Below are positions 1,808-8,250 of a DNA stretch of 42,575 bases, piece after piece. Within the stretch, counting starts at the first letter, position 1. Every line of letters begins with the position of its first letter. This DNA is from Cryomorphaceae bacterium (GTDB taxonomy: Bacteria > Bacteroidota > Bacteroidia > Flavobacteriales_D > SKUL01): positions 1-42,575 of the forward strand of contig REDV01000045.1 of assembly GCA_007695365.1 (NCBI GenBank), in the 5' to 3' direction. The notes below the pieces were generated by a model, which had not been told where the DNA came from, made no database searches, and was given only the letters and a program-made list of their open reading frames with translations. Both the position numbers and the translations under genes were made by a program.

Positions 1808-1911
1808 GATCACCTCCTAACCCGTGCAGTGGATACAAAAAACGCCCCCAATTCACCCCGGAGGTTCTTGGGGGCTTGTTTTGTTGTTTCACTTCGTTCG
1901 CTCAAACGCCT
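1808..1911. repeat. 104-bp direct repeat, copy 1
   Basis: This stretch is base-for-base identical to 1990-2093, with centres 182 bases apart. Read on the minus strand, each copy carries GTGAAACAACAAAACAAG, then a hairpin (GCCCCCA ... TGGGGGC) followed by GTTTTTTG, then GGTTAGGAGGTGATC. The hairpin with its T run looks like a terminator of minus-strand transcription, so the pair may be tandem back-up terminators behind ssrA. The plus strand at 1807-1818 reads GGATCACCTCCT, the sequence usual at the very 3' end of 16S rRNA. Confidence 0.9.
1834..1867 (-). terminator. terminator-like hairpin in repeat copy 1
   Basis: On the minus strand a GCCCCCA/TGGGGGC stem encloses about 19 bases and is followed by GTTTTTTG. 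The loop contains ACCTCC, which could pair with the AGGAGGT lying about 30 bases further downstream on the same strand. Boundaries are approximate. Confidence 0.6.
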
Positions 1912-1989
1912 TGTGGAGGTGTTCCAGTGAGAGTTCTTGGGCGAAAATCTTGATTTCAATAGGTTGTACGTCCTCGGGATTACTTACGT

Positions 1990-2093
1990 GATCACCTCCT
2001 AACCCGTGCAGTGGATACAAAAAACGCCCCCAATTCACCCCGGAGGTTCTTGGGGGCTTGTTTTGTTGTTTCACTTCGTTCGCTCAAACGCCT
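1990..2093. repeat. 104-bp direct repeat, copy 2
   Basis: This is identical to copy 1 at 1808-1911. It lies closer to ssrA, and its right part forms the left arm of the palindrome at 2060-2127. Flanking similarity continues loosely on the left (ATTACTTACG against ATTAATTACG), so the original duplication may have been somewhat longer. Confidence 0.9.
2016..2058 (-). terminator. terminator-like hairpin in repeat copy 2
   Basis: This is the same hairpin as in copy 1 (GCCCCCA/TGGGGGC stem followed by GTTTTTTG on the minus strand). It is the first such hairpin met by any transcript reading through the ssrA terminator. Confidence 0.6.
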
Positions 2094-2127
2094 GGCGGCG
2101 TTTGGCGACTTTGTGAAACAACAAAAC
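2060..2127. repeat. 68-bp imperfect palindrome next to ssrA
   Basis: The outer arms are a perfect 15-bp inverted repeat (GTTTTGTTGTTTCAC, 2060-2074, with GTGAAACAACAAAAC, 2113-2127). Inner arms CAAACGCC (2085-2092) and GGCGTTTG (2097-2104) enclose TGGC. The left half belongs to repeat copy 2. The right half ends in the ssrA terminator stem, so two hairpins compete for the same bases. Confidence 0.8.
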
Positions 2128-2151
2128 CGCCACGGTTACCCGCGGCGGTTT
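2113..2151 (-). terminator. ssrA terminator
   Basis: On the minus strand AAACCGCC (2151 to 2144) pairs with GGCGGTTT (2131 to 2124) and is followed by TGTTGTTT. It begins 12 bases past the mature 3' end of the tmRNA. Confidence 0.8.
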
Positions 2152-2162
2152 GTATCATCAAG

Positions 2163-2561
2163 TGGAGCCGGAGGGATTCGAACCCTCGTCCAAACAAGGA
2201 ACCATTCAGCTTTCTACATGCTTAGTTTCGCTTTGATTGTCGGGAAGCAGCAGGCAGCGCACAGCCAACTGAATCCGTAGTTCCTTAAGTCTCGTTGAGA
2301 CGTCGGAACCTCGTCTCAACCAGCATCGAAAGATGTTGCCCCATATACCGAAAGTCCGATGCGACCTTTCAGCGGGACACCCGCCCCGGGTTACTGTGCT
2401 TCACCGCGGGCTAGAGCCATTTATCACAAAGTGAGATTAGGCTGCGAGGGCGTAGTTATTTTCGCCTTTTATGGTTTGAACAACCTGATTTACGAGCCCA
2501 TTGTTCAACGCTCGGCATGCTTACTAAACGACTACTCTTGCTGTCAAAACCAGTCGGCCCC
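2163..2561 (-). ncRNA. ssrA: tmRNA (transfer-messenger RNA)
   Basis: tmRNA rescues stalled ribosomes and, with SmpB, adds a degradation tag. The 5' end (GGGGCCGACTGGTTTTGACA, from 2561) and 3' end (GGTTCGAATCCCTCCGGCTC then CA, ending at 2163) form the tRNA-like acceptor stem and T arm. GGGGCC pairs with GGCUCC, with one G-U pair. The tag frame lies at 2466 to 2437 and reads G-E-N-N-Y-A-L-A-A then TAA, of the Bacteroidota type. The CCA is not encoded (the next bases are CTT), so it must be added after transcription. Length is 399 nt. The end points come from acceptor-stem pairing. Confidence 0.96.
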
Positions 2562-2657: not shown

Positions 2658-3878
2658 ATGAACTTGATAAAGGTTGCTTTGATTCGCGAAGGCAAAGTTC
2701 CGCCAGATAAACGTGTGGCCCTCACACCTGTACAGTGTAAAGAGCTGGTGGAGCGTTTCCCGTCACTTCAAATAGTGGCACAAAAAAGCGCCATCCGGGC
2801 CATCGAAGATGCGGAATACGCCAAACAAGGCATCGAATTGCGTGACGATGTGTCAGACTGCGACATCATGATCGGCGTAAAGGAGGTAAACATTGACGAG
2901 CTCATTCCCAATAAAACCTACCTCTTCTTTTCGCACACGTTTAAAAAGCAACCCTACAACCGCAAGTTGTTGCAAGCCATACTCAACAAGCGTATCCGAT
3001 TGATTGACTATGAAGTAATGACCTACAGCGGAGGTGGCAGGGTACTGGGCTTTGGCAGATATGCGGGTATCGTTGGGGCTTACAACAGCTTACTGGCCTA
3101 CGGACGAAAAACCGGCCTTTTCAGCCTGAAGCCCGCGCATAAGTGCTTCGATCGTACTGAGGTAGAACGTGAACTCTCCAAAGTGAAGTTTCCCGATAAC
3201 TTTCGCATGGTGATGACCGGTTTTGGCAGAGTGGGCATGGGAGCCCGTGAAATCATTGATCTTGTTCCTGTGGAGCAGGTAAGCCATCACGATTTCCTGG
3301 AACGCGATTTTAATCGCCCGGTTTTCACGCACATCAACGTGGAGAACTACAACATTCACCGCGACGGAGAAGACTTCAGCCGGGAGCATTTCTACGCCTT
3401 TCCCGAGGAATACATGTCCACTTTTCCGCGATACGCCCACCGGGCTCAGCTCTATATTGCCTGTCATTATTGGGGTGCGGGAGCTCCGTACATTTTCACC
3501 CGGGAAGACACCAAACACCCTGATTTTGCCTTGCAGGTGGTGGGAGATATTTCCTGTGATATTGACGGACCGGTGGCCAGTACCCTGAGGCCCTCAACCA
3601 TTGCCGACCCTCACTATGGCTACGATCCCCAAACCGAAACGGAGGTGGACTTTATGCATCCTGGGGCTATTGGGGTGATGGCCATAGACAATCTGCCGTG
3701 TGAATTACCGCGCGATGCCTCAGAGGATTTTGGTAGCGAGCTTATGGAAAAGGTAATGCCTTGCCTGTTGGGCCAAGACGACGATGGAATCATTGAACGG
3801 GCCGCGCAAACCACATTGCAAGGCGAACTGGCTCCTGCGTTTGCCTACCTCAAGGGTTATGTTGAGGGTAAGGATTAG
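2658..3878 (+). CDS. saccharopine dehydrogenase-like NAD(P)-dependent oxidoreductase (AlaDH/PNT fold)
   Basis: This 406-residue protein matches the alanine dehydrogenase/transhydrogenase fold in its lysine-forming saccharopine dehydrogenase (LYS1-like) branch. The N-terminal catalytic part has IREGKVPPDKRVALTP near residue 8 and FSHTFKKQPYN near 91. A Rossmann nucleotide-binding loop TGFGRVGMG lies at 187-195. By family knowledge the enzyme interconverts saccharopine with lysine and 2-oxoglutarate, using NAD. The real substrate in this clade is uncertain and could be another amino acid. The ATG at 2658 starts the conserved N terminus and is 17 bases after a good -7 element. The gene stands alone, divergent from ssrA, and ends 3 bases from the convergent rpe. 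Confidence 0.82.
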   Translation: MNLIKVALIREGKVPPDKRVALTPVQCKELVERFPSLQIVAQKSAIRAIEDAEYAKQGIELRDDVSDCDIMIGVKEVNIDELIPNKTYLFFSHTFKKQPYNRKLLQAILNKRIRLIDYEVMTYSGGGRVLGFGRYAGIVGAYNSLLAYGRKTGLFSLKPAHKCFDRTEVERELSKVKFPDNFRMVMTGFGRVGMGAREIIDLVPVEQVSHHDFLERDFNRPVFTHINVENYNIHRDGEDFSREHFYAFPEEYMSTFPRYAHRAQLYIACHYWGAGAPYIFTREDTKHPDFALQVVGDISCDIDGPVASTLRPSTIADPHYGYDPQTETEVDFMHPGAIGVMAIDNLPCELPRDASEDFGSELMEKVMPCLLGQDDDGIIERAAQTTLQGELAPAFAYLKGYVEGKD

Positions 3879-7911: not shown

Positions 7912-8181
7912 TTACTTTCGGATGCCAAGATCCTTAATAAGGGCCCGGTACTTCTCAATGTCATTAGCTTTCAGGTAATCCAGCAAACGGCGACGCTTAC
8001 CAACCAAACGCACCAACGACCGCTCGGTGTTGAAATCCTTGCGGTTGTTCTTCAGGTGCTCGGTAAGGTGCTGAATGCGGTAGGTAAAAAGGGCGATTTG
8101 CCCTTCGGTGCTTCCGGTGTTAGTCTCCGACTCTCCGTACTGCTTAAAAATCTCTTTTTTCTTTTCGGTAGTTAAATACAT
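7912..8181 (-). CDS. rpsO: 30S ribosomal protein S15
   Basis: S15 binds the central domain of 16S rRNA early in 30S assembly. With the ATG at 8181 the product is 89 residues, the standard length, starting MYLTTEKKKEIFKQYG and containing the conserved TGSTEGQIALFTYRI and LVGKRRRLLDYLK. The frame continues 23 codons further upstream, but that extension crosses the promoter and is not part of S15. Confidence 0.97.
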   Translation of the reverse strand: MYLTTEKKKEIFKQYGESETNTGSTEGQIALFTYRIQHLTEHLKNNRKDFNTERSLVRLVGKRRRLLDYLKANDIEKYRALIKDLGIRK

Positions 8182-8220
8182 GCCAATATTGTTGAAATGA
8201 TTCTTATGTATTTGGGGCGG

Positions 8221-8250
8221 CAAATATACGCCTATTTTCGGCAAAACCAA
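8221..8250 (-). promoter_or_regulatory. rpsO promoter
   Basis: TTG (8250 to 8248), a 19-base spacer and TATATTTG (8228 to 8221) match the Bacteroidota consensus exactly. The leader to the ATG at 8181 would be about 33 bases. It abuts the accD stop codon at 8251. Confidence 0.75.

Follow-up and report, generated by a model that had tools for sequence, protein, structure and literature searches.

The RtT repeats (RF00391) that lie behind the tyrT gene of E. coli have been known for decades, and both their origin and their function are unsettled. They have the form GGGGAAGGATGAGAAG...GAGTAATCCTTCCCCCACCACCA. The number of RtT copies differs between two Salmonella strains (PMC2658671), and RtT has been described as an RNA released from tyrT/tRNA transcripts (PMC4986893). 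Here we describe a duplicated unit behind the ssrA gene of a Cryomorphaceae bacterium which very probably belongs to a family of RtT-like repeats built on the tails of tRNA and tmRNA genes. In the literature searched, no description was found of tRNA-tail repeats or of tRNA-linked GIY-YIG elements in Bacteroidota.

In the window (the whole stretch of 42,575 nucleotides that was analysed), positions 1808-1911 and 1990-2093 are identical over all 104 bases and are spaced 182 bases from start to start, confirming the exact duplication beside ssrA that an earlier note had reported. Sequence comparison within the window finds the two copies 98% alike over 109 bases, and the homology continues past the 104 bases with one indel, up to ATTAC. 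The features of the region are as follows.

2162..2561, minus strand: ssrA (tmRNA), the host gene (ARAGORN and Rfam RF00023, 152 bits)
2124..2151, minus strand: terminator hairpin of ssrA
1990..2098, minus strand: ssrA-proximal repeat unit (104 bases exact, 109 at 98%)
1808..1916, minus strand: distal repeat unit, with the 3′ side of its hairpin drifted (GATC-CGTAATTAAT)
2027..2046, minus strand: terminator-like hairpin and T run of the proximal unit
1845..1864, minus strand: terminator-like hairpin and T run of the distal unit
2005..2016, minus strand: conserved box ATCCACTGCACG (family form ATYCMCTKCACG), from alignments and further loci
1976..2000, minus strand: T-arm-like hairpin AGGAGGTGATCACGTAAGTAATCCC, origin of the Shine-Dalgarno-like match

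Each copy carries the GC-rich hairpin and T run described in the earlier note (2046-2027 and 1864-1845, on the ssrA strand), an arrangement that agrees with an intrinsic terminator, and the region holds eight terminator-like sites against 1.3 expected. The sequence that follows the ssrA terminator hairpin (2113-2127) recurs in inverted form at 2060-2074 and 1878-1892. The predicted fold of a single unit is unremarkable (z -1.2), and the 372-base double unit folds unusually well (z -8.6). A 61-amino-acid frame at 1889-2074 (minus strand) has a protein-like end, but spans the repeat. A search of the 3.52-Mb assembly found no further copy of the 104-bp unit. At gathering thresholds, Rfam families in the window were limited to tmRNA and an S15 leader, the latter a S15-Flavobacteria ribosomal protein leader at 8179-8228 of the window (minus strand; RF03161, 54.8 bits).

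Homologues of the unit are found behind ssrA in related genomes. A full ssrA was recovered in eight of 12 chosen relatives, six of which have the unit behind it (G040, G022, G035, G014, G050 and G029); it was not found behind ssrA in the other two, G003 and G034. The plan common to these loci is the box ATYCMCTKCACG followed by a hairpin that closes on AATCC, and in several relatives the units stand in tandem. In G040, a member of the same order but of another family, 184-bp tandem units behind ssrA end in CACGGGTTAGGAGGCGATCACCGAAGGTAATCCCTCCGGCTCCACTTG, of which AATCCCTCCGGCTCCACTTG repeats the 3′ end of the tmRNA itself. A sequence profile (R2) built from 10 unit copies was used to search 399 genomes of the order, and beyond its training loci it matched behind ssrA in G027 (L183) and G069 (L190), behind tRNA-Arg in G312 (L181) and G039 (L178), and behind tRNA-Val in G004 (L182); the many weaker matches with no tRNA nearby are probably due to chance. 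While the ssrA units of G040 and G027 retain a full copy of the tail, AATCCC is all that remains of it in the window unit, whose helix has lost the tail strand opposite GGAGG and has one core pair broken. With one mismatch allowed, the pattern GGGTTAGGAGGNNATCAC gave, outside G000, G001 and G040, only scattered single matches lacking the unit plan. The earlier note had held that a lack of other copies or homologues anywhere, together with no transcript past 2113, would reduce the repeat to a chance local duplication; since homologues exist, the duplicated module is more than that, and the duplication is real. In the sister genome G001, a copy 78% similar to part of the ssrA unit lies at L035 3062-3200, on a contig devoid of ssrA. 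This copy cannot be placed, because ssrA is absent from the G001 assembly, and it is either a dispersed copy or an assembly effect.

Within the genome under study, units occur behind 11 of the 30 tRNA genes examined in addition to ssrA, often in tandem, and can be divided into two classes. Class A units, behind tRNA-Met, Lys, Asn, Leu-CAG and Arg-CCT (in a variant form in the last), consist of the complement of the T-stem 3′ strand, GAGAAGTYTATGCCG, a hairpin, CGGTA and a copy of the tail. Class B units, behind tRNA-Val, Arg-TCT, Gly-GCC, Pro-TGG, Ser-TGA, Ser-GCT and ssrA, follow the plan GGAT-C-AC/GC-loop-GT/GC-A-ATCC, usually with the terminator region repeated in inverted form ahead of them. 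The largest tandem arrays, at tRNA-Pro and Ser-GCT, reach four or five copies, numbers that may be underestimates because several contigs stop inside arrays. The tRNA-Lys locus offers a comparison of filled and empty sites: two 151-bp units are present in this genome and none in the sister genome G001, the duplicated block reaching from the T-loop to where the T run of the terminator stops. Another repeated sequence, GTCATTTCGACCGGAGTGCTGAGG, was observed downstream of tRNA-His (L090) and tRNA-Asp (L083); at tRNA-His it has the inverted end GGTCGAAATGAC and is MITE-like.

The class A form extends well beyond this genome. It occurs across Bacteroidota, directly behind tRNA genes. When 84,980 species genomes were scanned with the pattern GAGARGTYTATGCCGN{25,55}CGGTAAG, 25 loci were returned, of which 20 are credible tRNA-tail units; in 16 of these 20 the upstream tRNA was identified, its own tail being mostly the one copied. 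The other five matches (L112, L115, L120, L123 and L135), with neither a tRNA nor the helix, were taken as chance. Since the inner helix and the loop were set by the pattern and helix 1 was left free, helix 1 provides an independent test. It pairs with the tail copy in 83% of cells, a percentage somewhat raised by the omission of near-duplicates and of the decayed copy L114 from an alignment whose 15 rows from other genomes all come from this single scan. The covariation score of the whole class A structure is 0.534, against 0.09-0.14 in slid versions (19 loci), and the class B helix covaries as well, with a score of 0.359 that none of 500 shuffles matched. A covariance model (R1) run over 392 genomes of the phylum gave matches in nine; every site in the other genomes follows the tRNA-tail plan, with a tRNA called in six of nine, and the motif is broadened to GAGAAGTYTA[TC][GC]C. 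Helix 1 tracks the host tRNA, unlike the inner hairpins, which are more alike across different tRNAs of the same genome (mean likeness 0.41, eight pairs) than between genomes (0.25).

Some tRNA loci of this kind also carry open reading frames. At L113 and L122, a GIY-YIG ORF separates tRNA-Met from the class A unit. A search for GIY-YIG domains (PF01541) in 199 genomes yielded 30 loci (L199-L228), with a tRNA in the fetched stretch of 25. Partial tRNA copies were present in 16 of those 25, comprising the 3′ part in ten and the 5′ part in six, and were usually joined through a palindromic hairpin. The GIY-YIG ORFs of this order thus look like a family of tRNA-homing nucleases. At G000:C85:76-589 (L219), two tandem 295-bp units were observed directly ahead of an intact tRNA-Arg, each with a GIY-YIG ORF and, attached to the palindrome CCTGCCTGCCGGCAGGCAGG, a 5′-part copy of tRNA-Arg(ACG). 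A 23S rRNA IVP ORF (PF05635) was also seen behind tRNA-Leu at L117 (about 2954-3307), followed by a decayed class A motif.

At its fullest, a unit is made up of the terminator region, the complementary strand of the gene's 3′ tail, a hairpin or loop, GTA and the tail once more, copied from the T-loop on. Such a structure could arise if small pieces of selfish DNA inserted into tRNA or tmRNA genes, within their 3′ half, in such a way that one intact gene copy remained, the inserted units then multiplying by tandem duplication and possibly being moved by a nuclease acting in trans. The ssrA unit of the window would be an old and partly decayed insertion, most of which was duplicated locally. The empty tRNA-Lys site of G001, the likeness of hairpins within a genome and the GIY-YIG and IVP loci favour small selfish insertions in tRNA/tmRNA genes, although for this proposed mechanism we see the balance as about even. 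Taken as a whole, an RtT-like tail-repeat unit of selfish-insertion origin is, by a modest degree of confidence, the best explanation for the window repeat. More tentatively, and with greater doubt, a family of minimal mobile elements might home into the loops of tRNA/tmRNA genes, leaving an intact gene plus a hairpin-closed partial copy; some members would carry a GIY-YIG nuclease, most would be non-coding and in tandem, and the E. coli RtT would represent the enterobacterial branch. The link between GIY-YIG ORFs and the non-coding units consists in their co-occurrence in arrays at L113 and L122. If true, such a family would explain the RtT puzzle, open since the 1970s.

The strongest alternative, which we regard as rather unlikely, is that the units are a functional trailer RNA, in which the T-arm-like hairpin and the tail copy would serve tRNA/tmRNA 3′ processing, quality control or a released small RNA. 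Helix covariation and a loop, GAGAAGTYTA, conserved across many genera speak for such an RNA, the location behind ssrA conserved in several families could mean an inherited functional RNA, and the description of RtT as a released RNA (PMC4986893) points the same way. Against it, the distribution is patchy, as the unit is missing from many tRNA genes and genomes as well as from tRNA-Lys of the sister genome, and most units are located past a terminator.

Attachment-site scars, left by phages or integrative elements whose tyrosine recombinase acts at tRNA/tmRNA 3′ ends, constitute an improbable origin. The stretch from the T-loop to the 3′ end of tRNA genes is a usual integration region, and this block is the one duplicated, with copies in tandem; yet the units measure about 110-180 bases and contain no integrase, and the class A motif follows the tRNA at a distance of tens of bases and is not at the far end of an island. 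The window unit had no match in viral contigs (exact-pattern scans) or in phages and plasmids (BLAST), and nothing similar to RtT was found in phages. A tyrosine-recombinase attachment site was accordingly rejected, as neither an integrase-bearing element nor an occurrence in a phage or plasmid came to light.

A simple local duplication of a terminator, devoid of further meaning, is highly improbable: the exact 104-bp copy is indeed local and unique in the assembly, but homologues of the unit stand behind ssrA in other families, and related units behind many tRNAs. The earlier suggestion of "just a duplicated terminator" therefore fails as a full account because of those homologues, and holds for the last duplication step.

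The earlier note had also proposed a Shine-Dalgarno-like small RNA or module that binds the 16S 3′ end. The window has two occurrences of the 11-mer AGGAGGTGATC, each within the repeat, and GATCACCTCCTNA is present three times in the genome, namely in the two repeat copies and at G000:C20:2047. ACCTCC does lie inside the terminator hairpin, as had been noticed, but in the predicted fold its pairing partner belongs to the hairpin itself and is not the AGGAGGT further downstream. In ssrA-linked homologues AGGAGG is replaced by AGGTGG (G022, G035), AGGATG (G014), AGGAGT (G050) or GAGGGC (G069), so that 16S complementarity is not kept among them and the proposed binding finds no support. Where the copy of the tmRNA tail is intact (G040 and G027), GGAGG is the exact pairing strand for the tail's CCTCC; it is from the G027 unit, which reads GGAGGGAACACCAAAGGTAATCCCTCCGGCTCCAC, that GGAGG is recognised as this strand. 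Where the hairpin of the units stands behind genes for tRNA-Arg, Pro, Val, Gly and Ser, the bases before AT are AGG, TGG or GGG, following the host T-stem. In the window, the tail copy after AATCCC has been lost, and the leftover sequence matches Shine-Dalgarno by happenstance. Thus, although eleven bases in both copies can pair with the 16S 3′ end, a 16S-binding module deserves almost no credence, given that the extended match is confined to the window, that AGGAGG is missing from about half of the homologues and that pairing with the tmRNA tail accounts for the match in G040 and G027; the window repeat is not a ribosome-binding RNA.

The RtT-like tail-repeat reading has practical consequences. 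With such units behind many Bacteroidota tRNA genes and ssrA, and with a helix tailored to each host, comparative genomics can test a selfish element against a trailer RNA. The contigs that end inside unit arrays are relevant to genome assembly and to the annotation of tRNA fragments.

Several known systems share parts of this architecture. An intrinsic terminator has in common with each window unit the GC-rich hairpin and T run, and is just one component of the unit. The GIY-YIG tRNA loci are similar in combining an intact tRNA with a partial copy, a hairpin usually marking the junction, and in sometimes being tandem; they differ in that a protein is encoded and that the copy begins at the anticodon loop or corresponds to the 5′ half. 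Known IVP intervening sequences reside within 23S rRNA genes; their likeness to the units is the IVP ORF placed between tRNA-Leu and class A motifs at L117, the single tRNA-linked case here.

The likeness to RtT is broader. RtT units are situated directly behind a tRNA gene in tandem, as the two window units are behind ssrA, a tmRNA gene. In RtT and in the fuller members of the present family, the complement of the gene's tail pairs with a tail copy to form the helix, and the closing elements follow GGAT..GTAATCC. The GAGAA that follows the helix in RtT is shared by class A and by the forms behind tRNA-Ser. In the window, CAC and not GAGAA stands after the 5′ strand of the helix, and the unit further differs from RtT by lacking a full tail copy, by its position behind a tmRNA and by having its own terminator. 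The Rfam RtT model had no match in the window at its gathering score (45 bits), none in ssrA and tRNA loci at E<=5, none in this genome, and none above the cut-off in 100 genomes of the order, the best reaching 35.5 bits (G018). Several sub-threshold matches were obtained in the order, and the five inspected (L164-L168) all lie behind tRNA-Ser genes, reading GGGATGAGAACC with a closing AATCCC or similar and, in most cases, with tail copies in tandem. The units of this order fall below the cut-off in Rfam score, and the plan of the tyrT repeats is common to both; the homology drawn between class A, class B and RtT is based on architecture and short motifs rather than on full-length similarity. 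The window unit is not an RtT by Rfam score and is built on the RtT plan. It most resembles the tyrT repeats of E. coli, the closest known kind, seen here in another phylum.
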